Shown in pieces: positions 34,117 through 60,141 of a DNA stretch of 64,000 nucleotides (position 1 is its first letter; every line of letters starts with the position of its first letter). Location of the stretch: positions 186,001-250,000 of the forward strand of contig NZ_CP007035.1 in assembly GCF_000243115.2 (NCBI RefSeq), given 5' to 3'. The stretch comes from Niabella soli DSM 19437 (lineage in GTDB: Bacteria; Bacteroidota; Bacteroidia; Chitinophagales; Chitinophagaceae). The notes under the pieces are model-generated. The model searched no databases and had not been told where the DNA came from. It saw nothing but the letters and a program-made list of their open reading frames with translations. Position numbers and translations under genes: made by a program.

Positions 34117-34164
34117 GTAACCCTTTGGCACTAAGAAAAACTTTTTTACCACCACCTGGGTTAC
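34117..34164. promoter_or_regulatory. Facing GGGTTAC motifs between the sigma factor and lipoprotein genes
   Basis: GTAACCC (34117-34123, i.e. GGGTTAC on the minus strand) lies about 37 bases before the sigma start, and GGGTTAC (34158-34164) lies about 52 bases before the divergent lipoprotein start. Both could be -35-like elements read by the ECF factor encoded here, giving autoregulation and co-regulation of the lipoprotein. This is inferred from position and identity only. Confidence 0.35.
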
Positions 34165-34216
34165 ATCTGAAGATTTCTGGTATTAACGTATTATTTGTAA
34201 TTAAAAGTTTAAGATA

Positions 34217-34444: not shown

Positions 34445-34469
34445 ATGCATTTATATTCGGCAAAAGAGG

Positions 34470-34499
34470 AGCCATTCCGTTATTACGGGTGGCTTTTTT
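34470..34499 (+). terminator. Rho-independent terminator after the small lipoprotein gene
   Basis: AGCCA and TCCG pair with CGGG and TGGCT around a TTATTA-type loop, with one bulged T, followed by a run of six T. It lies 25 bases after the stop codon. Confidence 0.7.
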
Positions 34500-34579
34500 A
34501 TTTCAGGTTCGAGGTCACAGGTTTCATGTTTCATGTTTGGACCATGAACTATGAACTACCGACTATGAACTAAATACCA

Positions 34580-34587
34580 TACCTTTG
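34580..34587 (+). promoter_or_regulatory. -7 promoter element of the RNA helicase gene
   Basis: TACCTTTG, exact TAnnTTTG match, about 29 bases before the GTG start. The sequence just upstream, including the -33 position, is made of GACTATGAACTA-type word repeats. Confidence 0.45.
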
Positions 34588-34615
34588 CCGCTTCATTTTA
34601 TATAAAAATACATTA

Positions 34616-40377: not shown

Positions 40378-43026
40378 ATGATCATACCGTTTTTAAAGAA
40401 GGCGTCTGAGAGAAATATCATTATTGTTTCTCTTGGTTTAAGTATGATCATACTGGTAGGATTGGGTATTTATGCAAACACCTATACTTATCGCTATAAG
40501 CGTTCCATGGAAAATACCACGGAAAAAGGCGAAATAATTGCCAAGGCAGATCAGATACATTTCGAATTTCAGGAACTGCAAAGTAATATGCGGGGGTACC
40601 TGATGGCTTCCGATTCCACCTACCTCTCCTCCTTTTATGTGGCGGAGCATATGATAAAACTGAACCTGACCCAGATCAAATCCCTTCCCTTAATGAAAGA
40701 GCAGCGAAGCGCCATTGCAGAGATCAGCGCTTTGATCGACCGGGAAATCAGTTTGGCAAAAACCATTCTTGCTGCTCATAAAGATTCTGTTAATGCGCTC
40801 GCCATTATGCAGGATAAGGGGGAGCGCTACCTGGCTTCCAATATCAAATACAAATTATCGAGCTTTATCAATGATGAGCGGGTGAGTCAAAACCAGGATA
40901 TCGCCTATGAAAAAAAGCACTCCAATTTTGATAAGGTTGTCTTTGTGATAACCCTCAGTATCGTTGCGTCTGTTGTTATTCTTTTATTATTGCTTTTATA
41001 TATTTTAAAAACATACCGGAGGCTGACGACCACAAAAAAGCTGTTGATGCAGTCGCAATTGCGGTTGGAAAATATTCTGGATATGTTGCCGATCGGGGTA
41101 ATTATTGCCAATGCTCTGAACGGGGAATATCATGCCAACCATAAAGCAATTGATCTGTTGGACAACCGGGTGGTTTCGGACGGTTATTTGTCTGGTGACG
41201 GCGATAAAGAAAGTAAGGAAATTTTGAGCAATGAGTTAATGGATACGTTGCTCATCGCCGAATCGCTAAAAGGGGCTCATCATATGGGTGTTAACCGGCT
41301 GGTGATAAAGAATAATAACGCCGAGATGCCGTTGCGTGTAAGCGCTACCCCGCTGTATAATGACAGCAACCAGATTGAATATGCCATCTCTGTGTTTGAC
41401 GATATTACTAATATAAAAAATGTAGAGAAGGAACTGATACAGGCAAAAAAACTGGTGGAACAATCATTGCGGTTAAAGGAGTCCTTTCTTACTAATATGA
41501 GCCACGAGATCCGCACCCCGATGAATGCGATACTCGGGTTTACAGAATTATTGGCCAAGAAAGACCTGGGACCCCAACAGAATGAATATGTAAAAACGAT
41601 TCGCTCCTCCGGTGATAACCTTTTAAGGCTGCTGAATGACATACTGGATTTCTCAAAGCTGGAAGCGAATATGCTGGTTTTTGAGGAGCAACCCATTTCT
41701 GTTAATGATATTATTATTTCCATTTGCGACCTGCTGGCGCCAAAAGCAACCGGTAAAGGAATTTCGCTGCGTCACGAATGCGATCCGGCTGTTCCGAAAG
41801 TAGTGGTTGGGGATTCGGTGAGATTGAACCAGGTGATCACTAATATTGTGGGTAATGCGATTAAATTTACGGAAAAGGGCGGGGTGGTTATTTCATCGAA
41901 GTACACGGGCATGAAGGGAGATAAGGTCCAGGTTGAGTTTATGGTAAAAGACAGCGGAATAGGCATTGCCCCGGACAAATTAGCGGCTATTTTCAACAGG
42001 TTTGAACAGGCAGATTCCGACACCAGCCGTTTTTACGGAGGAACGGGTTTGGGGCTCAGCATTGCCAAGCATCTGATTGAATCGCAGCAGGGTTCTATCG
42101 AGGTTGCCAGTGAACTGGGAGCGGGAGCTACTTTTTCATTCGTGATTCCCTTCAAATTGTATAATGAGCCGGAAGGGCGGCTAAACGTAGAGAAGAAGCA
42201 GGTCGCTATTGACTATGACTTTATGCGTTCCGTAAAAGTATTGATGGTGGAGGATAACCTGTTTAACCGAAAGCTGATGCAGGGGATTTTTGCCGAATAT
42301 GACCTTACCCTGGACATGTCGGAAAATGGCAAGGTGGCGCTGGAACGCCTGCACGATGCTGTTTATGACGTTATTCTGATGGATATTGAAATGCCGGAGA
42401 TGAACGGGTACGATACCTCAAGAATCATCAGGGATGAGCTCAAACTATCTACGCCGATCATTGCGCTTACGGCACATGCCATGGCGGGGGAAAAGGAAAA
42501 ATGTTTGCAGGCGGGTATGAATGATTATCTCACAAAACCCGTAAACGTAACGTTGCTTTTTGAGAAGCTCTACAATATTGTACATGCAAATGCCGGAGAT
42601 CGGGTACCTGAAAAAAAGGAAGTTGCGGTGGAAGAGGCGCCGGCAATAAATAATGTGCAACAGCCACCTGTTGCAAATGGAACTATTGACCTCAGTTATC
42701 TTAAAGAAATATCCAGTGGCAACAAGGAGTTTGAGAAGGAAATGATCGGACTGCTGTTGATGGAGGTGCCCGAACAGGTAACCCAACTGCAAGAGGCATT
42801 TGCTAACCGGGATTTTCCGGCCATCAAAGTCTATACCCACAAACTGAAATCATTGGTACCCATATTAGGCGCACCCGAAACCATCCCTTTTCTTAATTCC
42901 ATGGAAAAAGATGCAATTGCTGATAAGATCGATGATGAAAACGCAGCAGCTTTTGACGGTAAAATTGCATACATCAATAAATGTCTGGATGCGTTAAACC
43001 GGCTGCTTTTAGAAGAATATGCCTGA
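40378..43026 (+). CDS. Hybrid sensor histidine kinase: CHASE3-PAS-HisKA-HATPase-REC-Hpt
   Basis: Membrane sensor kinase with a built-in phosphorelay, 882 residues. A first helix (about 14-33) and a second (about 186-212) enclose a roughly 150-residue CHASE3-like periplasmic domain (ELQSNMRGYLMASDSTYL). A PAS-like region follows (LENILDMLPIGVIIANALNGEY). Then HisKA with His376 in NMSHEIRTPMNAILGF, and HATPase_c with N, G1 and G2 boxes (GNAIKFT, DSGIGI, GGTGLGLSI). Next come a receiver with Asp669 in VILMDIEMPEMNG and KP in DYLTKPVN, and a C-terminal Hpt domain with His821 in YTHKLKSLVPILG. A terminal Hpt needs a separate receiver as acceptor; the nearest is the stand-alone receiver at 52914. 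The PKS-NRPS genes follow after 544 bases. Confidence 0.93.
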   Translation: MIIPFLKKASERNIIIVSLGLSMIILVGLGIYANTYTYRYKRSMENTTEKGEIIAKADQIHFEFQELQSNMRGYLMASDSTYLSSFYVAEHMIKLNLTQIKSLPLMKEQRSAIAEISALIDREISLAKTILAAHKDSVNALAIMQDKGERYLASNIKYKLSSFINDERVSQNQDIAYEKKHSNFDKVVFVITLSIVASVVILLLLLLYILKTYRRLTTTKKLLMQSQLRLENILDMLPIGVIIANALNGEYHANHKAIDLLDNRVVSDGYLSGDGDKESKEILSNELMDTLLIAESLKGAHHMGVNRLVIKNNNAEMPLRVSATPLYNDSNQIEYAISVFDDITNIKNVEKELIQAKKLVEQSLRLKESFLTNMSHEIRTPMNAILGFTELLAKKDLGPQQNEYVKTIRSSGDNLLRLLNDILDFSKLEANMLVFEEQPISVNDIIISICDLLAPKATGKGISLRHECDPAVPKVVVGDSVRLNQVITNIVGNAIKFTEKGGVVISSKYTGMKGDKVQVEFMVKDSGIGIAPDKLAAIFNRFEQADSDTSRFYGGTGLGLSIAKHLIESQQGSIEVASELGAGATFSFVIPFKLYNEPEGRLNVEKKQVAIDYDFMRSVKVLMVEDNLFNRKLMQGIFAEYDLTLDMSENGKVALERLHDAVYDVILMDIEMPEMNGYDTSRIIRDELKLSTPIIALTAHAMAGEKEKCLQAGMNDYLTKPVNVTLLFEKLYNIVHANAGDRVPEKKEVAVEEAPAINNVQQPPVANGTIDLSYLKEISSGNKEFEKEMIGLLLMEVPEQVTQLQEAFANRDFPAIKVYTHKLKSLVPILGAPETIPFLNSMEKDAIADKIDDENAAAFDGKIAYINKCLDALNRLLLEEYA

Positions 43027-43570
43027 GGCTACCCAATTTCAGGTATTAAGATAATAAATGGACACATAATAATAAATCTGTATCTTTGAATCAGAAGTTC
43101 TGAAGAAATATTGGGCCAGGCCCGAAATAAGCCAGGTGATGAATGTTAGAGCAATCTATCAAGCCCTTACCTTCTCAAAATGCTTTGGTTTCGCAGTGTA
43201 GAAAATTGAGCACTATTTATTTTAAACGGGTGAAGAGTGAGGAATTGTCATGAAGAGCGCTTATTGAGGCACCGAAAGAAGGTACAAAACTGAATATTGG
43301 AGATGAGCATGCTATCAAAAATGAGGAAGAATCAAGAGTATAACCACTTCTGACCGCAGGATGATGGGTTTTCTCGGGGATATGTGTGTAAAAACCGGAA
43401 CGACATATGAATCTGCTGACTTCAGCGATCTAAGCATCCGATTCCATTTTTAGGCTATTTTGTTTGGGACGATTCATTTCAACCAGTGCCTCTCCGGAGC
43501 TAATAGCTACCAGGCGCAGAAGCGGTTAATCGACGGTAAGATTTCCAGGTTTTCAAAACAACACCAAAAT
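43027..43570 (+). other. 544-base leader upstream of the PKS gene, possible gene remnant
   Basis: No intact gene. A TATCTTTG octamer (43081-43088) matches the -7 consensus and would give a 480-base leader if it drives the PKS gene. Short open stretches look coding-like, e.g. a 30-codon frame (43361-43453) ending TTYESADFSDLSIRFHF, and APKEGTKLNIGDEHAIKNEE in another frame, but I recognise neither. The PKS protein begins with a carrier domain, as if an upstream loading region had been lost. Confidence 0.4.
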
Positions 43571-46500
43571 ATGAGTAAAGAAGTATTATACAGAAAGCCC
43601 GTTACAACTACTCAAAAAAATATTGCTGCCGTTTGGTTTGATATTTTGCAAATAAAGGATATTGGATTAGATGATGTTTTTTTTGATTTAGGGGGAAGTT
43701 CCTTTTCTGCCCAAAAAGTAGTTGTTCAATTAAAAGACCAGTTTAATTATGATATTCCCGTTGCTAAATTGTATCAATTTCCTACGATCGCAGGACTTGA
43801 ATCTTTTTTAAACGGGAATACAAAAACCAAGACAACCTTTTCATTAAAAAGTAAGCGCTCCGGAGGCAGCCCTGATATTGCCATTATTGGAATGGAATGC
43901 AATCTTCCCGGGGCAACGACCGTTGAAGCGTTTTGGGATTTGCTGAAAAACGGGAGAGAGGCGATTACTTTTTTCAGAGAGGATGAAGTGGATCCTTTTG
44001 TTCCTGACCGTATCAAAAATGATTCAAATTATGTAAAGGCCAGGGGCATTTTAAAAGAGGTGGAATATTTTGATGCTGATTTTTTTGGAATGAACCCCAG
44101 GTTGGTGGAACTAATGGATCCCCAACACCGGCTTTTTCTGGAAACATCGAGAAATTTATTAGAAAAGACGGGCTATTTAGCTGATAAAAAAGATTGTATT
44201 ATCGGGGTGTATTCCGGTTGTAATATTAATACCTATTTTAACAATAATGTTGTTTGGCATAGAGATAAAATGGAGTTGCAGGGCGCAATACCGGTAGAAT
44301 CCGTAAACGATAAGGATTATATTCCGGCCAGGGTGGCTTATCATTTAAATTTGCGGGGCCCTGCTGTGAATGTTAATTCTGCCTGTGCTACCTCCGCCGT
44401 GGCTATTGCGCAGGCCGTGGCAGGTTTGCGTGCAGGCCAATGTGAGGTGGCCATTGCCGGCGCGGCGGCTGTTACGGCCCCGGTTAACAGCGGACATTTG
44501 TATGAAGAGGGCTCTATGCTGAATATCGATGGACATACAAGGCCCTTTGATAGCGCCGGAACGGGTACCGTGTTTAGCGATGGCATTGGCGCCATATTAT
44601 TAAAACCATTAGACGATGCCGAAAGGGATGGCGATATTATTTATGCGGTAATTAAAGGCGTTGGCGTCAGCAATGACGGGGGCAATAAAGCCAGCTTTTC
44701 TGCTCCAAGTATTGAAGGGCAGGCCCAGGCCATTGCCCTGGCCATACAGGATGCGCAAGTAGTACCTTCTCAGATTTCCTACATCGAAGCGCACGGAACG
44801 GCAACACCGGTGGGCGACCCCATTGAAATAGAAGGATTAAAACTTGCATTTGGTGAGCAGGAAAAGAAACAATATTGCGCCATCGGGTCTGTTAAAAGCA
44901 ATATAGGGCATGCGAATCATACGGCCGGCGTGGCGGGTGTCATAAAAGTGGCACTCTCCATGCAGCATAAACAATTGCCGCCCTCAATTAATTTCGTTGA
45001 GGCAAACCCCAAAATTGATTTTGAAAACAGCCCGTTTGTTGTAAATGATAAATTGAAAGATTGGGTCGTTGATGGAAAGAGAATCGCAGGGATAAGCTCT
45101 TTTGGTGTAGGAGGCTCTAATGCGCATATCATTGTAGAAGAATATAATTCCCCTGCAGAAAAAAAACATTCGGAGCCGGATCAGGTGGTAACACCGCAGA
45201 TCATTGCATGGAGCGCAAAAACAGAAAAAAGTTTAAGGGATTATTCGGAGAAACTAAGGGAATATATAGATGCTAACCCAGGTGCGGCTCTTGCTGACAT
45301 TGCCTACACCCTTCAGCATACCCGGCAGGAGCTGGGGATAAGAAATGCGTTAGTGGCTAAAAACCTGGATGACCTGCGTGATCAACTAACCGATGCGACT
45401 AAGCTTTCCTCGTCGGTCAATGTTGTCAAAGAAAAAGGTGCAAATATAGTTTTCATGTTCCCGGGCCAGGGCAGTCAATACATAAATATGGGGAAGGAGT
45501 TGTATCGCACCGAACATGTTTACAGAGCTGCAATTGATGAATGTGCCGGGATATTGTTAAATGAAATGAAGGAAGATATTCGCAGGATTATTTTCCCGGA
45601 ACAGGAGGATGAGCGGGCAACTGAGCATTTAAAGAATACGTATTATACACAACCGGCCATTTTTATAACCTCTTATGCTTTGGCCAGATTATATATGAGC
45701 TGGGGCATATTACCCAATGCCCTGATGGGGCATAGTGTAGGGGAGTTTGTTGCGGCACATTTGGCCGGCGTTTTTTCTTTGGCGGATGCTTTAAAAATTG
45801 TTTCAACACGCGCAAGGCTGATCAGCGGATTGCCCGGCGGCTCCATGTTATCGGTCAGGACATCGGTGGATGCTATTCAATCCTTTTTGCCCAAAAATAT
45901 CTCCGTTGCGGCCATCAATGCTCCGCAGCTATGTGTATTGTCCGGAGAAAATAATGTTATTGAAGCGTTTTCCCAGGTATTGAATAAAAAGGATATTCTG
46001 AATAAACTTCTGCGGACCAGCCATGCCTTTCATTCTGAAATGATGGAACCTATAGTGCAACCGTTGGAACAGGTTGTTGAAGCTGCAGCATTAAATGTTC
46101 CCCGCATCCCCATATTATCAACGGTTACCGCCAGTTGGTTGAAAGATGAAGAGGCGCTCAGCCCGGCCTATTGGGCGGATCATTCAAGGGCGACGGTTCG
46201 TTTTTCCGGGGCAGTAAAAGCCATCGAGGAGGAATTGCAGCCGATATTCCTGGAAGTAGGGGCTGGAATTACCACCACCGTTTTAACCAAGCAACACGGC
46301 GGTGAAATAAGTAAAAGAACATTTGCATCGTTAGACACTTCAAATAAAGCGGAGGGTGAACCGGCTGCTATAAAAGGAGCATTGGCGAAATTGTGGTTGA
46401 AAGGAGTGACCATTAATTGGGAACCAATACACAACGGGTACAAGCCGACGCTATTGCACAGTGTACCAACCTATTCATTTGACCGGAAAAGGATATGGAT

Positions 46501-47227
46501 CGACCCTTTGAGTGATGCGGTATCGGACAATAACAGACAGGTTAATAATGTAGGAACGGCCCTGCAATCTGATCCGGTGCGGCCGGTGCAAAAATCAGTT
46601 GCGGCGGCACCCGGGCGCAAGGAGGTTATCATTAAAAAGGTAGCTGAACTGATCGAATTAATTTCAGGTATTGATTTAGCCAGTGCCAATCCTCACAGTA
46701 ATTTTACTGAATTGGGTTTAGATTCTTTATTGTTGACGCAAGTGGGCTCGGCATTAAAAAGGGAGTTTAAACTTCCGATTTCATTCAGGCAATTGAATGA
46801 AGATTATGATACCCTGGATAAGGTAGCCGTTTATTTTGATAGTAAACTGCCCCCTGATGCTTATGCGGAAAACGCCCTTTCTTCAGAGAAAAAGATAACG
46901 GAAGTCCCGCAGCAGTACCCTACACAACGAGTAGTTGCAGCAGGAAATTTAAAGGAGGACGGCGCTGTGGCACTAGCTGCAATTATGCAACAGCTAAATA
47001 TGCTTACGCAGCAGGTGGCCAAATTAGAAGAAGGCGCCCGTTCGAAGGAAACGCCGGTGCTTTCGGATGTGAATGCTAACCGGAAAAGCGACAAGAATGA
47101 AGGCGCTATTGTTATGGATAGTACGAAACCTCCAATGGCAGGGGCCCGTTTAGGCAGAGACCGGCAAGGGAACCCGGCGTGGTTTATTGAAGATGCCGGT
47201 AATCCCGGCAATTATATTCAATTGTAA
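43571..47227 (+). CDS. Type I polyketide synthase module: carrier-KS-AT-ACP
   Basis: Multidomain synthase of 1218 residues from the ATG at 43571 (MSKEVLYRKPV); an open frame to 43460 adds 37 non-matching residues. Order: an N-terminal carrier domain with Ser44 in DLGGSSFSAQ; a ketosynthase with Cys272 in NSACATSAVA, His408 in HGTATPVGDPIE and His447 in KSNIGHANHTAG; an acyltransferase with Ser722 in MGHSVGEFVAAH; a C-terminal ACP with Ser1052 in LGLDSLLLTQ; and a Gln-rich coil ending GARLGRDRQGNPAWF, typical of hybrid PKS-NRPS joints. The AT has HAFH (818-821), the malonyl-type motif. No KR, DH or ER is present, so the beta-keto group should remain. There is no loading domain: the starter on the first carrier must come in trans. 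The NRPS gene follows after 26 bases. Confidence 0.93.
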   Translation: MSKEVLYRKPVTTTQKNIAAVWFDILQIKDIGLDDVFFDLGGSSFSAQKVVVQLKDQFNYDIPVAKLYQFPTIAGLESFLNGNTKTKTTFSLKSKRSGGSPDIAIIGMECNLPGATTVEAFWDLLKNGREAITFFREDEVDPFVPDRIKNDSNYVKARGILKEVEYFDADFFGMNPRLVELMDPQHRLFLETSRNLLEKTGYLADKKDCIIGVYSGCNINTYFNNNVVWHRDKMELQGAIPVESVNDKDYIPARVAYHLNLRGPAVNVNSACATSAVAIAQAVAGLRAGQCEVAIAGAAAVTAPVNSGHLYEEGSMLNIDGHTRPFDSAGTGTVFSDGIGAILLKPLDDAERDGDIIYAVIKGVGVSNDGGNKASFSAPSIEGQAQAIALAIQDAQVVPSQISYIEAHGTATPVGDPIEIEGLKLAFGEQEKKQYCAIGSVKSNIGHANHTAGVAGVIKVALSMQHKQLPPSINFVEANPKIDFENSPFVVNDKLKDWVVDGKRIAGISSFGVGGSNAHIIVEEYNSPAEKKHSEPDQVVTPQIIAWSAKTEKSLRDYSEKLREYIDANPGAALADIAYTLQHTRQELGIRNALVAKNLDDLRDQLTDATKLSSSVNVVKEKGANIVFMFPGQGSQYINMGKELYRTEHVYRAAIDECAGILLNEMKEDIRRIIFPEQEDERATEHLKNTYYTQPAIFITSYALARLYMSWGILPNALMGHSVGEFVAAHLAGVFSLADALKIVSTRARLISGLPGGSMLSVRTSVDAIQSFLPKNISVAAINAPQLCVLSGENNVIEAFSQVLNKKDILNKLLRTSHAFHSEMMEPIVQPLEQVVEAAALNVPRIPILSTVTASWLKDEEALSPAYWADHSRATVRFSGAVKAIEEELQPIFLEVGAGITTTVLTKQHGGEISKRTFASLDTSNKAEGEPAAIKGALAKLWLKGVTINWEPIHNGYKPTLLHSVPTYSFDRKRIWIDPLSDAVSDNNRQVNNVGTALQSDPVRPVQKSVAAAPGRKEVIIKKVAELIELISGIDLASANPHSNFTELGLDSLLLTQVGSALKREFKLPISFRQLNEDYDTLDKVAVYFDSKLPPDAYAENALSSEKKITEVPQQYPTQRVVAAGNLKEDGAVALAAIMQQLNMLTQQVAKLEEGARSKETPVLSDVNANRKSDKNEGAIVMDSTKPPMAGARLGRDRQGNPAWFIEDAGNPGNYIQL

Positions 47228-47253
47228 AATAAATTTAATTAGTAATAGTTATT

Positions 47254-50200
47254 ATGGTCGTGGACAAAGTCAGTAGTGAACCAGGTTATAATCCCTTTGC
47301 AGGTAATTCAATAGAAAAAGCGCTTCCGGCAACTGAACCGCAAACGGAAATACTCGTTTCCTGCGTGATCGGTGGTGATGAGGCTAATCTTGCCTATAAT
47401 CAATCCATGTCCCTATCCTTTACCGGCCCGCTCAATGAGCCTGTTTTGAGGGAATCGTTACAGGAATTATTAAACAGAAATGAAGCATTGCGTTCTTCGT
47501 TTAATGCTGATGTAACCCGGATGTTTATTTATTCCCATCAGTCCCTCGATTTGTTTTACAGAGATATAAGTTCCGACAGCAAACTTCAGCAGGATGTTAC
47601 AATAGATGCGTATAACCGCAAAGATGCAGTTACTACTTTTGACTTAATTAATGGTCCGCTGATACGGTTTGCATTATTTAAAAAAGCGGAAGATCAGTTT
47701 TTACTAACCATCACCGTGCATCACGTAATTTGTGATGGGTGGACCTGGGGAATAATGTTCGAACAATTATCCTCGGTTTATAACTCAAAACTAAAAAACG
47801 AGCCCCTGTCCGACCAGCCTTTATTATTCAGTGATTATGTACAAAAAGTCCTGGCTTTTTCAGGTACAGATGAATATGCCCAAATTGAAAAATATTGGCT
47901 GGACGAGTATAAAAATAATATTCCTTTTTTTGAAGTACAGCCTGATTTTCCCCGTCCGTCATTAAGGACCTATAAGAGTAATGGATATAATTACACTTTA
48001 TCAGATGATCTGGCGGAAGCAGTAAAGAAAACCGGGGCAAAATACGGATGCAGCTTTGTAAACACACTGATGTCTGTATTTGAAATATTGCTGTATAAAT
48101 ATACCGGCAATAATGATATTGTGATCGGGCTGCCAACAACAGGGCAAACGGCAACCGAAATGCATTATCTGGTTGGCCATTGTGTAAACTTTCTTGCTTT
48201 AAGAAGCCACCCCGATGATGCCCTTTCATTTGTTGAATACTTAAAATTAAGGAAGTCCAAGACCCTGATGGATTACGAGCATCAGCAGTTTACCTACGGG
48301 GCCTTGTTAAAGAAGCTAAATATTAAAAGAGATGCGGCGCGCATACCGTTAACCCCTGTATCGTTCAATGTTTCCTTCGGTATAAATATGCATGTTGCCT
48401 TTGACGCTGTTGACTTTGAAATAATTTATAATCCGCGGGTAAGTGAAACCTTTGAACTGACGCTGAACGTTACGGAAGGCAGGAATGGGTATGTTTTTCG
48501 CTGGGCATATAATGCGCAGTTGTATGAAGAGGCCACTATCAGGGGATTGATGCAAAAGTACCTGCAACTACTGCAACAAATAGTAGAAGACCCTGAGCGC
48601 AAGATCGGGGATCTATACATAGACAACCAGCCGGCGCAAAAGCCCGATAAATGCGATAATACTTACCAGGAATTGCCTGATAAAACGGTCGCCGGATTAT
48701 TTGAAGAAATGGTGCGTCAATATCCGGATAATAGTGCATTAGGATTTGGGGGCGAAACTCTTACCTACAGGCAACTGAATGAGCTCGCTAACCGGGAAGC
48801 TAATTTTTTATTGGCAAGGGGGCTTAAAAAAGGAGATATAGTTGGCCTTGTGCTGGAGCGGGCGCCGCAGGTAATTATATCAATGCTGGCAGTGCTTAAG
48901 TGCGGAGGCGCATACCTGCCTATTGATCCCGGGTTTCCCGAAGACCGGATCAACTTTATGTTGGAAGATTCGGAGGCCCGCTTTGTTTTAGTAAATAATA
49001 CTTTTTCAGGTAAATTAAATCCGGCGGCCTCCCTGATTGTTATTGAAAATATAAAGCAGGAGCTGCTACAGGCCGCCACTGCCGTTACCAATATTCCCGT
49101 TTCGGGAGGAGATCTTGCTTATCTGCTTTATACCTCGGGCTCTACAGGAAAACCCAAAGGGGTGATGGTCTCGCACAAAAACCTGCTGAACTTTCTCCTG
49201 AGCATGAAAGATATCTTCAGAACCGGTATTCATACAAAGCTGCTTTCCGTTACCACAATATCCTTTGATATAGCCGGGCTGGAAATATATTTACCATTGA
49301 TTTCCGGGGGGCAATTGGTGCTGGCGGATAAGAATACTGCAAAAGATAGTAAAGCCTTAATAGAATTGTTGAAAACCGGACGGATCGGAATGATGCAGGC
49401 TACCCCTGCAACGTATAAACTAATGCTGCAGGAAGAGTGGCCCGGCAACCGGTCGCTGACGCTGTTGTGTGGCGGAGAGGCCCTGTCGAAAAAAGTAGCG
49501 GAGGCTTTGCTGCAGAAGTGTGACCGTTTGTTCAATATGTATGGCCCCACGGAAACGACCATTTGGTCTACCGTGAAAGAAATAAGCGCATCGGATAAAT
49601 TGATAACGATAGGCCGGCCTATACAGAATACAAGCGTTTACGTCCTTGATGAAGATCATAATGTATTACCGCCCGGTACAGAAGGCGAGATTTTCATTGG
49701 GGGCGATGGGGTAGCTTTAGGTTATTATAAACGCCCCGGGCTTACAGCAGAGCGTTTCATCCCCGATTTATTTTCGGATAAGAAAGGTGCAAAACTTTAT
49801 AAGACGGGTGATCTGGGCAAGTATTTGCCTAATGGGGAATTAGTGTGTTTGGGTAGAAGCGATAACCAGGCCAAGATAAGAGGCTTCCGGATTGAACTGG
49901 AGGAAATAGAGCATTATATCTCAAAAATAGAGGGAATAAAAGATGCAGTGGTGAAAGTAGAGGACGCAGATGGGTTAGATCCCCGGCTGATCGGATACGT
50001 GGTCCTCTCCGATACGGCTGCATTGAACGGAGCGGCCGTAACGAGAGATGAAATTATAAAATGGCGGAGGGAATTGGGCCGGACGCTCCCTGATTATATG
50101 ATACCTAATGGCTGGGTAAAGCTTAAAGAATTCCCGCTGACGCCTAATAAAAAGGTAGACCGGAAGGCGTTGAAGTATAAAACGGCGGAAGACGAGATAC

Positions 50201-51270
50201 AAAAAGAGCCCCTAGCCCCGTCAGAAGAACTGGCTGTATTAATAGTGGGTATAACAAATATATGGGAAGAAGGAATTGGCGTAAAAGGAATAGAACCCAA
50301 TGACAATTTTTTTGAATTGGGCGGCAATTCAATGATTGCTATTAAGGTGATGGCGGAAATTGAAAAACAAACAGGTGCTAAACTGCCAATCGCTACTTTA
50401 TTTGAAAGTCCTACAATAAAATCCCTGGCAGAAATAATTGATACCAACAAAAATTTTAACCATTCAAGAGTGGTAATTCCCATTAAACCCACCGGGGAAA
50501 AGCACCCGATATTTTTGGTGCACGCGGGGGGGCTTAATATAATGCTGTATAAGTCATTGAGCCAGTATTTTGATGAGAACCAACCTTTATATGGACTGCA
50601 GGGCCTGGGTATAGATGGCGATGTATCGCACTTGAAAAGTATGGAGAGCATAGCGCAACGGTATTTGTCGGAAGTCTTGGAGCATGACCCAACGGGGCCT
50701 TATATTATTATGGGGTATTCCTTTGGAGGGGTCATTGCGTTTGAAATGGCAAAACAGCTATTGGCTATGGGAAAAAAGGTTAAAATGCTGGGTATCCTGG
50801 ACACCAATATTTTCAGAGAAATTAAATATAGTAATAAGGCGCAATTATATGCTGTAAAAGCCTTGAGGCAATTCCCCAAAATTGCATTTTACATCAAACA
50901 GTTGATAATTACGCCGCGCGATTTTTTCAAATATCAAGGGATATATCTTAAGAAAAAATTTAACAAAGAATATGTTGACCCTGAATTTGTAAAGTTAGAA
51001 ATATATGACTATGATGAAAAGGTTGTGCAGGCCTACTACCGGGCAAATCAAAATTATGAGTTTAAACCGATAGATATTAAGATAGATTTGTTTAGAACCG
51101 AGGAGAAACTGCCCTATTTCAATGTAGATTCCAAATACTTCAGTTGGAGGAAATATGCGCTGAAAGGCGTTAAACGGCATGTTGTTCCGGGAACCCACGC
51201 AACCTGTATGTTACCTCCAAACAATGAAATGTTAGCTAAAAAAATTCAGGCGGTGGTAGATAATAAATAA
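47254..51270 (+). CDS. Non-ribosomal peptide synthetase: C-A-carrier-thioesterase (glycine-like code)
   Basis: Termination module of 1338 residues. Condensation domain with His156-His157...Asp161 in HHVICDGWTWG. Adenylation domain with TSGSTGKPKG (627-636), YGPTETT (763-769), YKTGDLGKY and NKKVDRKAL. Carrier with Ser1026 in LGGNSMIAIK. C-terminal thioesterase with Ser1156 in MGYSFGG, Asp1183 in ILDTN and His1315 in GTHATC. Reading the ten specificity positions by alignment to GrsA gives D672, I673, L676, Q715, L738, G740, M762, I770, W771, K967. This differs at one place from the glycine code DILQLGLIWK as I remember it, so glycine is the predicted substrate. With the PKS module upstream, the expected product is an N-(3-oxoacyl)glycine or a cyclised form (inference). 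Confidence 0.93.
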   Translation: MVVDKVSSEPGYNPFAGNSIEKALPATEPQTEILVSCVIGGDEANLAYNQSMSLSFTGPLNEPVLRESLQELLNRNEALRSSFNADVTRMFIYSHQSLDLFYRDISSDSKLQQDVTIDAYNRKDAVTTFDLINGPLIRFALFKKAEDQFLLTITVHHVICDGWTWGIMFEQLSSVYNSKLKNEPLSDQPLLFSDYVQKVLAFSGTDEYAQIEKYWLDEYKNNIPFFEVQPDFPRPSLRTYKSNGYNYTLSDDLAEAVKKTGAKYGCSFVNTLMSVFEILLYKYTGNNDIVIGLPTTGQTATEMHYLVGHCVNFLALRSHPDDALSFVEYLKLRKSKTLMDYEHQQFTYGALLKKLNIKRDAARIPLTPVSFNVSFGINMHVAFDAVDFEIIYNPRVSETFELTLNVTEGRNGYVFRWAYNAQLYEEATIRGLMQKYLQLLQQIVEDPERKIGDLYIDNQPAQKPDKCDNTYQELPDKTVAGLFEEMVRQYPDNSALGFGGETLTYRQLNELANREANFLLARGLKKGDIVGLVLERAPQVIISMLAVLKCGGAYLPIDPGFPEDRINFMLEDSEARFVLVNNTFSGKLNPAASLIVIENIKQELLQAATAVTNIPVSGGDLAYLLYTSGSTGKPKGVMVSHKNLLNFLLSMKDIFRTGIHTKLLSVTTISFDIAGLEIYLPLISGGQLVLADKNTAKDSKALIELLKTGRIGMMQATPATYKLMLQEEWPGNRSLTLLCGGEALSKKVAEALLQKCDRLFNMYGPTETTIWSTVKEISASDKLITIGRPIQNTSVYVLDEDHNVLPPGTEGEIFIGGDGVALGYYKRPGLTAERFIPDLFSDKKGAKLYKTGDLGKYLPNGELVCLGRSDNQAKIRGFRIELEEIEHYISKIEGIKDAVVKVEDADGLDPRLIGYVVLSDTAALNGAAVTRDEIIKWRRELGRTLPDYMIPNGWVKLKEFPLTPNKKVDRKALKYKTAEDEIQKEPLAPSEELAVLIVGITNIWEEGIGVKGIEPNDNFFELGGNSMIAIKVMAEIEKQTGAKLPIATLFESPTIKSLAEIIDTNKNFNHSRVVIPIKPTGEKHPIFLVHAGGLNIMLYKSLSQYFDENQPLYGLQGLGIDGDVSHLKSMESIAQRYLSEVLEHDPTGPYIIMGYSFGGVIAFEMAKQLLAMGKKVKMLGILDTNIFREIKYSNKAQLYAVKALRQFPKIAFYIKQLIITPRDFFKYQGIYLKKKFNKEYVDPEFVKLEIYDYDEKVVQAYYRANQNYEFKPIDIKIDLFRTEEKLPYFNVDSKYFSWRKYALKGVKRHVVPGTHATCMLPPNNEMLAKKIQAVVDNK

Positions 51271-51385: not shown

Positions 51386-52714
51386 ATGAAAATTGCAGTT
51401 GTAGGAACCGGTTATGTAGGATTGGTTACCGGTACCTGTTTTGCTGAAACAGGAAATCATGTTACGTGCGTGGATATTGATATGAACAAAATTGAAGCTT
51501 TACGAAAAGGAGTTACACCCATTTATGAACCGGGACTGGAAGTACTGCTGACCCGGAATATTAAAGAGGAACGCATTTCGTTTACTGATGATTTAAAAGA
51601 AGCGGTTAAGGAAGCAGTTGTTATTTTCCTGGCGCTGCCTACCCCTTCAGACCAAGATGGTTCTGCTGATCTGAAATATGTATTGCAGGTAGCGGAAGAG
51701 CTTTCCGGCATGATCACTTCCTACAAGGTAATTGTAAATAAGAGCACTGTTCCTGTTGGAACATGTGAAAAAGTAACGGCAGCCCTTAGCAAAAAATTGT
51801 CAAAAGATCTTTTTGATGTGGTATCCAATCCTGAATTTTTAAGGGAAGGCGTTGCCGTTGAGGATTTCCTGAAACCTGAAAGAGTGGTTGTAGGCAGCAG
51901 TTCGGAGAAAGCGTCTAAAATAATGGGGGAACTTTATAGCCCTTTTGTACGCCAGGGAAACCCCATTTACTTTATGGATGCAAGAAGCGCGGAAATGACA
52001 AAATACGCTGCCAATTCCTTTTTGGCTATGAAAATTTCGTTTATGAATGAAATGGCAAATCTTTGTGAAAAAGCGGGGGCAAATGTAGATTGGGTAAGAA
52101 TAGGCATGGGTAGCGACCAGCGCATTGGGAAACGCTTTCTTTTCCCCGGTATCGGGTATGGGGGGAGTTGTTTCCCAAAAGATGTACTTGCCTTAAATCT
52201 CACGGCAAAGGAGTATGATTATGATTTCAAATTATTGCGGTCGGTTCTGGAGGTAAATAAAATACAAAAAAAGCTAATTGTTGACAAGATCAGGAACCAT
52301 TATAAAAATAATCTTTCAGGGAAGCATTTCGCGTTATGGGGGCTGGCCTTTAAACCGGAAACGGATGATATCCGGGATGCGCCATCATTGGATATTATTG
52401 AGGCATTGCTGGGAGCAGGGGCAACTTTGAGCGTATATGACCCGGTTGCCATGGAAAATATACGTAAAAAGTTCAGCGATCGGATCGGATATGGGATGAA
52501 TCAGTATGAAGTGCTGCACAATGCCGACGGGCTTTTGATTTTGACGGAATGGAGTGAATTCCGGAATCCCGATTTTGATAAAATGAAGCGATTGCTGAAA
52601 GAGTATGCTATTTTTGACGGACGAAATGTTTATGCGCTCGAAAAGATGAGAGAGATGAACTTCCATTATGAAAGTATCGGCAGGGAGATTGTTGACCACC
52701 GATCGGTGTCATAA
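51386..52714 (+). CDS. ugd: UDP-glucose 6-dehydrogenase
   Basis: Oxidises UDP-glucose to UDP-glucuronate with two NAD+, supplying an acidic sugar for the polysaccharide made by the genes that follow. It is 442 residues, normal length. The N-terminal NAD-binding motif is MKIAVVGTGYVGLVTGTCFAE. The catalytic Cys262 is in GIGYGGSCFPKD. VNKSTVPVGTCEKV and NPEFLREGVAVEDFLKPERVVVG are diagnostic. The C-terminal UDP-binding domain has WGLAFKPETDDIRDAPSLDII. It could also be a UDP-N-acetylmannosamine or GDP-mannose dehydrogenase, but GYGGSCFPKD with FLFPG fits Ugd best. About 200 bases separate it from the receiver gene, and 115 bases from the NRPS. Confidence 0.93.
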   Translation: MKIAVVGTGYVGLVTGTCFAETGNHVTCVDIDMNKIEALRKGVTPIYEPGLEVLLTRNIKEERISFTDDLKEAVKEAVVIFLALPTPSDQDGSADLKYVLQVAEELSGMITSYKVIVNKSTVPVGTCEKVTAALSKKLSKDLFDVVSNPEFLREGVAVEDFLKPERVVVGSSSEKASKIMGELYSPFVRQGNPIYFMDARSAEMTKYAANSFLAMKISFMNEMANLCEKAGANVDWVRIGMGSDQRIGKRFLFPGIGYGGSCFPKDVLALNLTAKEYDYDFKLLRSVLEVNKIQKKLIVDKIRNHYKNNLSGKHFALWGLAFKPETDDIRDAPSLDIIEALLGAGATLSVYDPVAMENIRKKFSDRIGYGMNQYEVLHNADGLLILTEWSEFRNPDFDKMKRLLKEYAIFDGRNVYALEKMREMNFHYESIGREIVDHRSVS

Positions 52715-52913
52715 TGGCAGATCAAAAAAGCCTCAGATGAGCTATTGAAGCTGGGAAATTAGCTCCGTAGCCGGATAACGGCGGCAGTTAAAGTATTTAT
52801 CGATGAACTGCCCCCTTTCATCGAAAAGATTAAAATGTTTTTTTAATATAATGTAGTTTTATGACCGATACGAATTTTTTAAAACCGATTTCGGTTAACC
52901 TAACACGATTACG

Positions 52914-53300
52914 ATGAAGTCTAAACATTTATTAATTGTCGATGACGAGCCAGCAATCCTCAAACTGCTTCAATTTATCTTGTCAAAAGATTATACAGTA
53001 ACGCTTAAAAATAACGGCCTGGAAGCGGTGTTGTGGCTGGAAGAAGGAAATAAGCCCGACCTGATCATTCTTGACATTAATATGCCCTACTTTAATGGAC
53101 AGGAGTTTTTTAAATCGCTAAAGGTAAGTGGCCTGTTCCAGGAAATTCCAGTGATCATTCTTACCGGGCACACAGACATCGATCAACTCAAAGCCGATTT
53201 ACAATTCCCGGTAGCCGCCATCATTCCTAAACCATTTAACCCCTCTATACTCCAAAATGCAGTCAAATCTTTCGCTCGGTCAAGATCTGAGATATTTTAA
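52914..53300 (+). CDS. Single-domain response regulator (stand-alone receiver)
   Basis: A 128-residue CheY-like receiver with no output domain. The acidic pocket is VDDEP, the phospho-acceptor Asp54 is in LIILDINMPYFNG, the conserved Thr is in VIILTGHTD and the Lys in IIPKPFNP, so it should be phosphorylated normally. A TAGTTTTA near-consensus -7 lies about 55 bases upstream. The sugar transferase gene starts inside its 3' end (44-base overlap), which points to coupled translation in a fixed ratio. A likely phosphodonor is the Hpt domain of the hybrid kinase at 40378; its likely target is the pseudo-receiver of the next protein (both inferred). Confidence 0.92.
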   Translation: MKSKHLLIVDDEPAILKLLQFILSKDYTVTLKNNGLEAVLWLEEGNKPDLIILDINMPYFNGQEFFKSLKVSGLFQEIPVIILTGHTDIDQLKADLQFPVAAIIPKPFNPSILQNAVKSFARSRSEIF

Positions 53301-54363
53301 ATCTGATATTGTAGACGCAAACGAACTCGCATATATCGGAAAGAGCTATCTGGATGAGGTAGCAATACCGCTTCATAAGGATTATCATTTTGAGGTGGAT
53401 GAGTTTGAGTCGTTTCGTCACTTTCAGGCTTTCCTGAAAAAATGCTCCATTCTGGAATGCCCGGGCATCATAGTATTGGAAGAGCAGGAAAATATGGATA
53501 TCGACAGCGTGCTTACTGAACTCCGGGATAATCCTTTGACTTCGGGTGCCATTATCATCTTGTTGGCCTGTAAAAACAGGGATGCGGAGTATTATCAACC
53601 CCGTAAAATTAATGATATTTACATTGCCCCCTTCAAAGTAAATATGATCGCGGACCGGTTATCATTTTTGCTTCGGTTAAAGATCATTAAGTCCAATAAT
53701 GAAGCACTGAAACCGGCGGATATCCCTACTTACAAGATGGCATTGGGTAAGCGCCTGCTGGATATTGCCGTTTCATCGCTGGCCCTGCTGCTCCTGTCGC
53801 CACTATTACTGATAATAGCCCTGCTGGTGAAACTTTCAGGAAAGGGGCCTATTATTTATAAAAGTAAAAGAGCCGGAACCGGATATAAGATATTTGATTT
53901 TTATAAATTCAGATCGATGTCTGCCGATGCCGACAAAAAATTACAGCAACTGAGCACAACTCATAATCAGTATGCCACTGCCGACACAAACGAGCCAAAA
54001 GCATTTGTGAAGATCCTGAATGATCCCCGGATCACAAAAATCGGTGCTTTTTTAAGAAAAACCAGCCTGGACGAGCTTCCACAATTATTTAATGTCTTAA
54101 AGGGAGATATGTCTTTAGTTGGGAACAGGCCTTTACCTTTGTATGAAGCGGAGCTATTGACGTCTGATCAATTTGCCATGCGTTTCCTGGGTCCTGCCGG
54201 GATTACGGGCCTGTGGCAGATCAGTAAAAGGGGACAGGCGGAAATGTCAAGTGAAGAACGCATCAGTCTGGACAACCATTACGCGCAATATGCATCGTTT
54301 TGGATGGACCTTAAAATCGTGTTGAAAACAATACCAGCAATGCTGCAAAAAGAGAAAGTATAA
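53257..54363 (+). CDS. Initiating sugar transferase with N-terminal pseudo-receiver domain
   Basis: Polyisoprenyl-phosphate glycosyl-1-phosphate transferase that starts polysaccharide repeat units, 368 residues. The C-terminal 200 residues are the bacterial sugar transferase domain: KRLLDIAVSSLALLLLSPLLL membrane helix, YKSKRAGTGYKIFDFYKFRSM, SLDELPQLFNVLKGDMSLVGNRPLP and GPAGITGLWQISKRG. Residues 1 to about 145 resemble a receiver with lost key residues: the strand IIVLEEQ has Glu where Asp is expected, IILLAC has Ala for Thr, and DIYIAPFKV lacks the Lys. The start is ATG 53257 inside the upstream receiver gene; no other in-frame Met exists before about residue 80. The sugar is unknown. The pairing with an intact receiver suggests phospho-control of initiation. 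Confidence 0.9.
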   Translation: MQSNLSLGQDLRYFKSDIVDANELAYIGKSYLDEVAIPLHKDYHFEVDEFESFRHFQAFLKKCSILECPGIIVLEEQENMDIDSVLTELRDNPLTSGAIIILLACKNRDAEYYQPRKINDIYIAPFKVNMIADRLSFLLRLKIIKSNNEALKPADIPTYKMALGKRLLDIAVSSLALLLLSPLLLIIALLVKLSGKGPIIYKSKRAGTGYKIFDFYKFRSMSADADKKLQQLSTTHNQYATADTNEPKAFVKILNDPRITKIGAFLRKTSLDELPQLFNVLKGDMSLVGNRPLPLYEAELLTSDQFAMRFLGPAGITGLWQISKRGQAEMSSEERISLDNHYAQYASFWMDLKIVLKTIPAMLQKEKV

Positions 54364-54390
54364 TATTTATCTACAAAAAAAACGCTTATA

Positions 54391-55098
54391 ATGAGAACTT
54401 ATTGCCTTACTACCACTTTATTGTTATGTTTATTAAGTTTTATCCCCGCCAGATCCCAGGAGTCTTTGGTAGGAGATATAGATCGTGATCTTCTTACAAA
54501 ATACATTGCGCTGGCCCGTCAGAATTTCCCACGGGTGAAAAGTTTCCACGCTCGTGAGGAAAAGGCCAGGAGTATGGTGACCACTGCACAGATGTCCTGG
54601 TTCGATATGTTTAATGCAGGCTATTATTACCGGCCGGAGACTAGCACAGGCAGTGGCACCACCACTGGTGGCGGTGTTACCCCTAACGGACAGTTGATCA
54701 CCAGCGGTTTCCTCTTTGGTGCAACCATTAATTTGGGATCGCTGCTTTCCAAGCCTTCACTAGTTAAGGCGGCCAAGGCAGATTATAAAGCCGCAGTTGC
54801 GGACAATGCAGAGTATGATATCATGCTAGCCAACGATGTCCGGTCCAGATATTATGACTACCTTGCTGCCAGAAAGCAGTTGGTGATCCGGAACCTTTCC
54901 GCGCAAAACCTGAAAGGTATAGCAAATGACGCCCAGGCAAAATATGAAAAAGGGTCAATACCACTGGATGTTTATACCATCTCTAAAAATGCGGCTACCG
55001 AGGCAGCGGCCCAGGCATTGGGTGCAGAGGTGACTTATCTTAAAGCAAAAGATGCTTTGGAAGATCTTATTGGCGCCAAATTAGAAACTGTAAAATAG
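54391..55098 (+). CDS. Half-length TolC-family outer-membrane protein in the polysaccharide locus
   Basis: Secreted protein of 235 residues with signal peptide MRTYCLTTTLLLCLLSFIPARSQ. The body has the alpha-helical, Ala/Lys-rich pattern of one OEP repeat (YIALARQNFPRVKSFHAREEKARSMV, ANDVRSRYYDYLAARKQLVIRNL, TEAAAQALGAEVTYLKAKDALEDLIG), with a strand-like Gly-rich turn STGSGTTTGGG. Normal TolC proteins have two such repeats and over 400 residues, so this one would need more copies to close a channel, or it is a different kind of exporter part. It sits where a Wza-type export protein would be expected, 27 bases after the sugar transferase and 19 before the Wzc-like gene. Confidence 0.8.
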   Translation: MRTYCLTTTLLLCLLSFIPARSQESLVGDIDRDLLTKYIALARQNFPRVKSFHAREEKARSMVTTAQMSWFDMFNAGYYYRPETSTGSGTTTGGGVTPNGQLITSGFLFGATINLGSLLSKPSLVKAAKADYKAAVADNAEYDIMLANDVRSRYYDYLAARKQLVIRNLSAQNLKGIANDAQAKYEKGSIPLDVYTISKNAATEAAAQALGAEVTYLKAKDALEDLIGAKLETVK

Positions 55099-55117
55099 CA
55101 CCAGGAAAAAAAATCAA

Positions 55118-57343
55118 ATGAACCTCAATCTAAACCTGAAAGATTTTTTAAAATATTTATTCCGTTTTAAATGGCTGTTGATTATTGTGCCGGCCGTTTG
55201 TTTGGTCATTTCTTATTTTTTTATAAAAAAAATGCCCAAGAAGTATGTTTCTGAGGCACTAATTGCAACGGGAATCACGGGGCAATTTCAGCAATCGATA
55301 GCAACCGATCAGCAGGGGATGGATTATTTTAAAATGAGCCAGCAGTTTGGCAACCTTTTGGAATTGCTCCAGTCAAAGCGCGTGATCAATATGTTGTCTT
55401 ACCAACTGATTCTGCATGATCTGAGGGACCCAAAGTCGCCGTTTTTGGAATATTCCAAGCTGATGAAGCAATTAACGCCAGCACAAAAGGATCAGGTTAT
55501 TGCCGGGTATGAAAAACGTCTTTCCGAAAATGAAATTATATCTTTGGCGGATAACGACGGGCCCATCCAATTCTTTGATATTTTAAAATCGAAGGGGTAT
55601 GATGAACAGAGTATTTTAAAAAACCTGAAAGTGGCCCGCAATGGCGAAAGCGATTTTATTAAGGTCTCCTATACATCTCCCAATCCTCATTTGTCCACAT
55701 TTGTTGTCAATAGTCTGTCTACCGATTTTATTTCTTATTACACAGACCTTACGCTTGCAGGGCAAAAAAAATCAATGTCGATCCTTGACACGGTTCTTAA
55801 AACGAAGCAGCAAACGCTGGAAGAAAAAAGCGCTCAACTGAGCAGTTCCATATCCAGCGCTAACGCAGCTGCTTCCGGAGCGCAGATCGCACAAAGGAAA
55901 TCGGATATGTCCTATCAGCGCCTTAATGAAGCAGAGGGACAAAAGGCTCAAATGCTGAGAACCATTAGTTCGATCCAGGGAGCTATAAATGATATCAATA
56001 ATAAATTAAATGGCGGTGGCGGTTATCTTGAGCAGCCGCGTTCATCGTCAACAGCAAATGCAGAGATTGTAAATCTCGATAATCAATTAAATATCGCCAA
56101 TCAGCGCTATATCAATAATAATTTCAGCCCGCGGGATAAAGCGACGATCGATTCGCTGCAATTGTTAAAAACGCGCCTGATCGCCTCCAGTTCCGCAGGT
56201 TCATCCACCGCTAATCCGACGGCTATCCGCCAGGGCCTTATTGATCAGAAAATGAAGCTGGAAAGTGATCTGGCTTCTGCCAAAAGCAGTATGGCAACAA
56301 TAGATCAACAGCTTAACGCGTTAAAAGCAACTGCCGGGCCGTTATCAGGAGGTGTTGTGCTATCTAATGGCAATCAACAGGAAATAGTTCAGGGCGCCGA
56401 CATTGCCGCCAGGGACTATGCTGATGTTCAACAGAGATATGAACAAATGATGCTTGCCGCCAAAGCCGGAGTGAAGCTTACATTGGCGGAACCGGGATTG
56501 CCGGGGACGGCGGAACCTTCAAAGGGCCTGCAGCTTTTGGCGTTGTCGGGCATTTCAAGTGTATTGGTTTGCCTGCTATTGCTTTTGGTAACGTTTATGC
56601 TGAACAACACCCTGAATACACCCGAGCAACTGGAAGCGGGCATGCACCAGAAAGTGCTGGGGTTTCTAAATTATATTCCGGAAGAAGACAAAGATCTCCG
56701 AACCATATGGAAAGACAAGGGGACTGTACCCAGCTATTCGGCCTATAAAGATCTGTTACGGTTGCTCCGGTTTGAACTGACGGAACGGCTCAGGGATGAT
56801 AGGAACGTACTGGGGATCACAAGTGTACTGCCGGGCGAAGGAAAGACCTTCCTGGCTGGCAGTCTTTGTTACGCTTTTGCAATGACCGGAAAAAATGTTT
56901 TGTTAATAAGTGATGGGAACGAGTCTTTAATGGATCTTGTTTCCAATAAAAAAAGTAAACGGGAGTCTTCCCAGGGGTTTGAGTCTTTCATTGTTAAAAA
57001 GGAGATTGAAGTGGAAGACCGGATCACTATCTTAAACAAAAACCCTTCAACCACTTCGCTACTTGAGTTGAGAGACAGTCAGAGCCTTCAGGCTGGGTTT
57101 CAGGTGTTGAAAGAAACATTTGACGTGGTAGTGGTGGATATTGGCAGTGCACAGGATATACACAGTATTAGAGAATGGCTGATGTTTTGTGATCATAACC
57201 TGGCTGTTTATGAGGCCGGGCAAAAATTAACAGACCAGCACCGGGAAGTGAGTCGCTTTCTATCTGCTCAGCCCGGATTTATTGGATGGGTGCTTAATAA
57301 AGTACAATTAAAACCTAACCATCGCATTGCAGCAAAAGTATAG
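55118..57343 (+). CDS. Wzc-like polysaccharide chain-length regulator with P-loop domain lacking a Tyr tail
   Basis: Inner-membrane polysaccharide co-polymerase, 741 residues. A first membrane helix (about 14-36, LLIIVPAVCLVISYFFI), a long periplasmic region with coiled coil (about 230-440), and a second helix (about 470-495, LLALSGISSVLVCLLLLLVTFML) precede a cytoplasmic nucleotide-binding domain: Walker A in LPGEGKTFLAG (about residue 571), Walker A' reduced to VLLISDGN, and Walker B in FDVVVVDIGSAQD (about 671). The protein ends RIAAKV without the tyrosine cluster of true bacterial tyrosine kinases. It probably sets chain length with the Wzy-like protein that starts five bases later. Confidence 0.88.
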   Translation: MNLNLNLKDFLKYLFRFKWLLIIVPAVCLVISYFFIKKMPKKYVSEALIATGITGQFQQSIATDQQGMDYFKMSQQFGNLLELLQSKRVINMLSYQLILHDLRDPKSPFLEYSKLMKQLTPAQKDQVIAGYEKRLSENEIISLADNDGPIQFFDILKSKGYDEQSILKNLKVARNGESDFIKVSYTSPNPHLSTFVVNSLSTDFISYYTDLTLAGQKKSMSILDTVLKTKQQTLEEKSAQLSSSISSANAAASGAQIAQRKSDMSYQRLNEAEGQKAQMLRTISSIQGAINDINNKLNGGGGYLEQPRSSSTANAEIVNLDNQLNIANQRYINNNFSPRDKATIDSLQLLKTRLIASSSAGSSTANPTAIRQGLIDQKMKLESDLASAKSSMATIDQQLNALKATAGPLSGGVVLSNGNQQEIVQGADIAARDYADVQQRYEQMMLAAKAGVKLTLAEPGLPGTAEPSKGLQLLALSGISSVLVCLLLLLVTFMLNNTLNTPEQLEAGMHQKVLGFLNYIPEEDKDLRTIWKDKGTVPSYSAYKDLLRLLRFELTERLRDDRNVLGITSVLPGEGKTFLAGSLCYAFAMTGKNVLLISDGNESLMDLVSNKKSKRESSQGFESFIVKKEIEVEDRITILNKNPSTTSLLELRDSQSLQAGFQVLKETFDVVVVDIGSAQDIHSIREWLMFCDHNLAVYEAGQKLTDQHREVSRFLSAQPGFIGWVLNKVQLKPNHRIAAKV

Positions 57344-57348
57344 ATTGG

Positions 57349-58791: not shown

Positions 58792-58820
58792 TTCACATGC
58801 TTAAATAAAAAATTTTAAAA

Positions 58821-58898
58821 ATGCCGTTCCTGATTTTTGCAATTCCGGGCTTGTTGTGCTTCCTTTGGGGATTAAAGAGGGGGTATAAGAAGCCGTAA
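58821..58898 (+). CDS. Possible 25-residue membrane microprotein
   Basis: Short frame between the polymerase and glycosyltransferase genes: MPFLIFAIPGLLCFLWGLKR followed by GYKKP. One hydrophobic helix with a positively charged tail, in the same strand and within the operon. An A-rich leader (TTTTAAAA just before the ATG) fits local start sites. It is too short to judge by codon use, so chance cannot be ruled out. Confidence 0.4.
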   Translation: MPFLIFAIPGLLCFLWGLKRGYKKP

Positions 58899-58934
58899 TC
58901 CCATCTGGGACTACCACGGTTTTCGGAATATATA

Positions 58935-60122: not shown

Positions 60123-60141
60123 TTTTGTTAAATAGTATTTT

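Follow-up and report, generated by a model that had tools for sequence, protein, structure and literature searches.

A shortened two-gene PKS-NRPS line in Niabella soli with a predicted trans-charged first carrier

Layout of the gene pair

The window analyzed here is a stretch of 64,000 nucleotides from Niabella soli DSM 19437 (contig NZ_CP007035.1, positions 186,001 to 250,000), and its subject is a pair of adjacent plus-strand genes that encode a small hybrid of polyketide synthase (PKS) and non-ribosomal peptide synthetase (NRPS). The PKS gene (P0001, 43571-47227) encodes a peptidyl carrier protein (PCP), a ketosynthase (KS), an acyltransferase (AT) and an acyl carrier protein (ACP) followed by a C-terminal tail, as read from Pfam and the open reading frame (ORF), and the NRPS gene (P0002, 47254-51270) encodes condensation (C), adenylation (A), PCP and thioesterase (TE) domains by Pfam. 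Matches above the cut-offs in the PKS gene are PP-binding in two stretches, the N- and C-terminal ketoacyl-synt families, KAsynt_C_assoc and Acyl_transf_1; those in the NRPS gene are Condensation, AMP-binding, PP-binding and Thioesterase, with AMP-binding_C slightly below its cut-off. Besides the NRPS gene, no PF00668 match occurs in the genome (4.70 Mb, one contig). The PKS open frame runs upstream to a TTG at 43460, from which residues of its product are counted below. In the sister species G016 this ATG (MSKEVLYRKPVTT...) is conserved and in-frame stops lie immediately 5′ of it, and the start is therefore placed at 43571.

The first carrier, PCPa (43625-43807), has no A domain ahead of it, retains its serine in an LGGSS motif (43688-43702) and is of the position-1 type by identity. 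The KS (43874-45154) has Cys309 in ACATS (44381-44395) as well as His445 and His484, with EAHGT and NIGH motifs intact, and the AT (45449-46264) has GHSVGE and a malonyl-type HAFH (46022-46033). The second carrier, an ACP with a GLDSL motif (46655-46909), is assigned by motif and identity comparison, and is followed by a tail with LGRDxxGNPAWF (47105-47224) that is conserved across the compared lines; no aminotransferase follows the ACP, and Pfam gives no Aminotran_3 match in the PKS gene. In the NRPS, the C domain (47380-48618) has HHVICDG (47719-47739), the A domain (48700-50154) has its motifs, the third carrier, PCPc (50251-50436), has LGGNS and is of the position-2 type by identity, and the TE (50506-51249) has GYSFGG (50713-50730). 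No ketoreductase, dehydratase or enoylreductase family is found in either gene by Pfam at E 0.001. These results bear out the original prediction of a carrier-KS-AT-ACP and C-A-carrier-TE order with a malonyl-type AT and without reductive domains, and they support its view that no loading domain precedes the first carrier, which would receive its starter in trans.

Aligned with PheA, the A domain of the NRPS has the code DILQLGMIWK. The letters are as read before, when they were described as one residue off a glycine code, but that wording understated the match, since a passage in PMC12283262 gives this very string as common to four glycine-activating domains, which makes the glycine reading stronger than was then held. 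The code recurs in compared A domains of Pedobacter, Rhizobium and others. That the last unit is glycine is thus a supported prediction from the code.

Comparison with related lines

The pair was compared with lines collected by searches of the genus, its relatives and its family and by a scan of named genomes, which gave 29 lines with alignable KS-AT, the window included. Apart from the window and G016, an A domain stands ahead of the first carrier in 26 of 27 lines, and the remaining one (G013) is on a contig that begins at the carrier, so that what precedes it is out of view. Only the window and G016 lack the loading A domain. It is present in seven lines of the genus (G001, G002 in two frames, G003, two in G004, G011 and G012) and in 19 outside it (L058-L061 and 15 family genomes). 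The family search matched 48 of 394 sampled genomes, four of them in the genus; 15 of the 44 others were read, all taken from 22 outside-genus places at E 0. The other seven places have open frames of 1925-2224 aa, a length consistent with an A domain, and are left out of the counts, as are the distant loci L062-L077 and L082, which were listed for domains. Among the latter, the gene begins with the KS in L076 and L082, and a related line in Rhizobium, Nitratireductor and other Rhizobiales (L063, L065, L066, L068, L069, L071, L072) has A-PCP as a separate protein before KS-AT-ACP-aminotransferase-C-A-PCP.

In the KS-AT tree (29 rows), the window and G016 lie within the genus lines, in a 10-row clade with support 100/99. 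Judged by the distribution of the A domain, the missing loading domain is a loss and not the original state, and the window line descends in shortened form from an A-PCP-KS-AT-ACP-(aminotransferase) // C-A-PCP-TE line of a type that occurs in Pedobacter and in further genera of the family. The "minimal line" proposed before is therefore real as a present two-gene form, but it was not minimal originally. Bacteroidota lines of the form A-PCP-KS-AT-ACP-aminotransferase // C-A(-methyltransferase)-PCP-TE occur in Pedobacter sp. PLR, P. nutrimenti, P. caeni and the 15 family genomes, and the window has in common with them the two-gene order (one gene in G125), homologous KS-AT-ACP and C-A-PCP-TE sequences and the C-terminal tail. 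It differs in having no loading A domain, no aminotransferase after the ACP and no adjoining phosphopantetheinyl transferase (PPTase), and in carrying a transplanted A domain, described below. The aminotransferase is present in 25 of the 29 lines, namely all 19 outside the genus and six within it, and its loss is not tied to that of the A domain, as it is missing from G002 and the second G004 line as well as from the window and G016. That second line is part of a tandem pair at G004:C1:1477030-1500525 (L031-L033) and is extended to C-A-PCP-C-A-PCP-TE.

A non-coding stretch of 544 bases (43027-43570) separates the PKS gene from an upstream histidine kinase gene, whereas in G011 the kinase gene is followed by one for a GT61 protein and next by the loading A domain. 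Six-frame blastp (one match, E 0.35) and blastn against related regions found no trace of the A domain or the GT61 gene in the stretch, and none of 16 congeners gives a match to it. A single shared piece stands out, at 43068-43097 on the plus strand: 30 bases that are 90% identical to a stretch before the G011 PKS gene (E 0.003), with TATCTTTG in both. It is possibly a retained promoter, the Bacteroidota motif being TAnnTTTG. The sequence upstream of the G016 PKS gene is unrelated to that of the window, and the gene end ahead of the G016 line has no Pfam match and only weak matches in 5 of the 394 genomes (E 0.006 to 0.07).

The A domain that remains is a transplant within its own gene. In a 34-row A-domain tree it forms one clade (support 100/100) with the loading A domains of the G012 and G003 PKS genes, to which it is 67% and 71% identical and whose codes are the same, against 30-43% identity to the genus's other A domains. 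The C, PCPc and TE domains around it resemble their position-2 counterparts, and PCPa resembles position-1 carriers. The likeness extends from about residue 530 to about residue 980 of the NRPS (48841-50193, plus strand), over which most 30-residue steps show 63-100% identity to the G012 and G003 loading domains, with weaker stretches of 27-33% at residues 576-620 and 50-63% at 906-950, compared with 7-70% and mostly 25-60% for position-2 A domains. The A domain thus groups with these loading domains while its neighbours keep their own position, and the transplant is of the loading type that the two congeners have. The direction of transfer is the more conditional part, as gene conversion followed by deletion of the loading domain would look identical. 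Recombination of A domains within NRPS genes is described in PMC8097286 and PMC7486941.

Substitution rates between the window and G016 were counted by NG86 on two sequences with many synonymous changes, the G016 carrier being interrupted by a scaffold gap. Within these limits dN/dS is 0.083 for the whole PKS (1174 codons), 0.031 for the KS, 0.052 for the AT, 0.106 for the ACP, 0.16-0.20 for the linkers and tail and 0.082 for the C part of the NRPS (267 codons), with dS near 1 (0.7-1.2 across the regions measured). As the two species also start the PKS at the same ATG, the short line seems to be kept by purifying selection rather than decaying.

The starter unit and the predicted product

The proposal for the line draws on its domain order, intact motifs, glycine code, lack of a loading A domain, purifying selection and transplanted A domain, from which its activity, step order and product release may be predicted. 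The first carrier would be charged in trans, the KS would accept the acyl group from PCPa and extend it once with malonyl from the AT, the 3-oxo group would stay unreduced, the C domain would couple the 3-oxoacyl chain to the glycine that the NRPS A domain activates, and the TE would free an N-(3-oxoacyl)glycine. The core of this proposal, comprising an unreduced malonyl unit, glycine and a trans-charged first carrier, is held with good confidence. An N-(3-oxoacyl)glycine had been predicted before, and the malonyl unit, the terminal glycine and TE release fit the sequence; the acyl group is the part that needs amending. Since ancestor-type lines begin with a loading A domain, the ancestral starter was probably an amino acid, and the acyl group may therefore be aminoacyl, for example glycyl, rather than fatty. 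A tetramic acid is also a possible product, as an N-(3-oxoacyl)glycyl enzyme could cyclize (Dieckmann) to a 3-acyl tetramic acid.

As to the starter, the most likely charger would be the line's own glycine A domain, which would load both carriers and give 4-amino-3-oxobutanoyl-glycine. In favor of this, the A domain belongs to the type that precedes the pre-KS carrier in G012 and G003. This full version, a working shortened line whose first carrier is self-charged with glycine, is put forward tentatively, as a reading that falls somewhat short of even chances. There is a precedent in capreomycin biosynthesis, where, according to a passage of PMC12400406, CmnA-A1 charges two carriers, that of CmnI in trans. 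As in that system, the window has an A-less carrier module and a suitable A domain elsewhere in the line. The differences are that the capreomycin case is described there as demonstrated in E. coli using L-Dap and CmnN, whereas the A-less module of the window starts a PKS, its predicted amino acid is glycine and its loading is predicted from sequence.

Standing close to self-charging is a second explanation, that the starter is not glycine and that another enzyme loads a different acid onto PCPa or the KS directly, the KS having been re-tuned; the product would be an N-(3-oxoacyl)glycine with another acyl group. This is a serious alternative with roughly one chance in three, and its main support comes from replacements that accompany the loss. 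Over 953 columns from PCPa through the AT (columns with fewer than 20 other rows skipped), sites were counted at which the other rows agree except at most one and both A-less lines differ. The window and G016 differ at 11 such near-invariant sites, eight in the KS, two in PCPa and one in the AT, compared with 0, 1, 1, 2, 3 and 4 in six control sister pairs, whose stem lengths were not equalized.

Several observations weigh against self-charging with glycine. Three of the eight KS sites lie within five residues of catalytic residues, namely L313A after Cys309 and L485A and T486N after His484, two of them Leu-to-Ala, and all three are common to the window and G016 (hypergeometric P 0.018 for the clustering, the limit of five having been picked after seeing the data). 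The KS domains of G012 and G003, which are expected to receive glycyl, do not have these changes. Glycine on PCPa would need no change in the KS, whose substrate would be that of the KS in those two genomes; the replacements near the active site point to a starter that is another one or is presented in another way, and they form the main evidence against the self-charging reading. PCPa is no nearer to the G012 and G003 carriers than to others, so that similarity is indecisive on the charger. The G016 assembly holds the NRPS only to residue 267, which leaves the A domain and transplant out of sight there, and the G012 and G003 loci, the source of the loading-domain evidence, are broken by frameshifts or stops that may be assembly error or pseudogene (G003 and G012 are 72% and 83% complete). 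A sequence search of solved structures returned only other PKS KS-AT chains (best 8xjy), which give no map of the changed residues.

Candidate loaders for a non-glycine starter are an acyl ligase or an A-PCP-TE protein at G000:C1:1973195-1975774. The genome has five AMP-binding matches including the NRPS, and the A-PCP-TE protein is the one other found to be NRPS-like; the remaining three lie in frames of 661, 594 and 459 aa. In favor of this second explanation, the two A-less genomes both have the A-PCP-TE protein, as does G011 alone among the others of the genus, and the code of the first two (DIEQFGMICK in the window's genome) is unlike the glycine code of the G011 version. Against it, the protein comes with a carrier and a TE of its own, at a distance of 1.7 Mb from the line, and no ligase gene is found among the Pfam-scanned ORFs at 28926-36265 and 37111-63759. 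A divergent DUF6875 gene adjoins the A-PCP-TE protein (G000:C1:1972422-1976791; L053:10422-14791); the G016 protein is cut by a contig end, and the G011 version adjoins a putative glycosyltransferase gene.

A third explanation makes PCPa a relic, with the KS priming itself from acyl-CoA or decarboxylated malonyl. Although the A domain that would charge PCPa is gone, the carrier keeps its serine and its position-1 type, with a dN/dS of 0.107 over its 42 codons and of 0.034 over the first 36 codons from the ATG, and this explanation is unlikely. That the line is decaying and makes nothing is less probable still, since the lost loading domain and the absence of an aminotransferase and an adjoining PPTase would fit decay, but motifs are intact without stops, dN/dS is 0.03-0.20 in all regions measured and the truncation is common to two species.

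The predicted end product resembles commendamide and other bacterial N-acyl glycines in being an acyl amide of glycine; these are made by a single N-acyl synthase rather than an assembly line. A survey of Bacteroidetes clusters (PMC9248904) lists N-acyl glycine with the known cluster families and describes the hybrid NRPS/PKS clusters of this phylum as largely unlike those of others. The line resembles a natural experiment in assembly-line engineering: its final module holds a loading-type A domain, nothing stands at the loading position, the KS carries changes next to the active site, and two species retain the short form under apparent selection. If one A domain does charge both carriers, it would be a two-gene and easily tested case of trans-iterative loading at the entry point of a PKS.

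Polysaccharide genes and other neighbours

The polysaccharide genes and CHASE3 sensor kinase reported around the pair are confirmed by the domain scan. Downstream, at 51386-61350 on the plus strand, lie genes for a UDP-glucose dehydrogenase, a response regulator, a sugar transferase, an OEP protein, Wzz-type and Wzy-type proteins and two glycosyltransferases; upstream, on the same strand, is the CHASE3 hybrid histidine kinase (40378-43026), which precedes the line in G011 too (67%). Across 17 genomes of the genus, Wzz-type homologues (at least 52%) and most of the sugar transferase (at least 56%) occur in eight, and in all eight the PKS-NRPS line is directly upstream of the operon, with one 730-aa gene between them in G013. 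Eight genomes have neither line nor operon, seven of which have the sugar-transferase domain alone (up to 48%) without the N-terminal part, and G016 has the line with no operon match in its 240 contigs (90% complete). The co-occurrence has a Fisher P of 0.0004 with kinship ignored, and presence is not confined to a single clade, as three changes are needed to place it on the PriA tree (16 genomes).

Beyond the genus the link is weaker. The operon is on the same contig in three Pedobacter records, where it and the NRPS gene are about 19, 24 and 38 kb apart, and the sugar transferase is about 5 and 3 kb away in G412 and G136, but 14 of the 19 outside lines have no operon in the stretch read, which is short for G195 and L060. 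The association with polysaccharide genes noted earlier thus holds within the genus and loses ground beyond it; the roles suggested then for the product, as signal, surfactant or polysaccharide substituent, are possibilities. For promoters or terminators that would set the NRPS apart from the polysaccharide genes, promoter-like (31 against a shuffle mean of 28.0) and terminator-like (10 against 12.7) counts are near the shuffle mean and therefore uninformative. A speculative and rather improbable possibility is that these lines form the variable end of a polysaccharide system, in which A domains are swapped per species (glycine, threonine-like, asparagine-like and other codes) and a small keto- or amino-acyl dipeptide would be attached to, or signal for, the exopolysaccharide, comparable to variation at O-antigen loci; the window line would then be a form reduced to one A domain charging both carriers. 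A search of titles and opening lines of abstracts returned nothing on a small hybrid PKS-NRPS product linked to exopolysaccharide, and a functional link, if true, would tie such products to it.

The response regulator overlaps the sugar transferase (52914-54363), whose N-terminal region of about 160 residues is Pfam-silent, and this pair recurs in the genus and in the three Pedobacter records. No PPTase was found beside the line by Pfam on the ORFs around it, and the genome has three PF01648 (PPTase family) matches. In L003 (G000:C1:1410216-1413431), a 254-aa PF01648 gene overlaps a glycosyltransferase-like gene at their 3′ ends; the latter is 65-69% identical to one beside the Pedobacter lines, and homologues of both genes sit beside the PKS-NRPS line in Pedobacter. 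On the minus strand of the window, at 32373-34080, a sigma-factor-like gene stands beside a trypsin-like protease gene.

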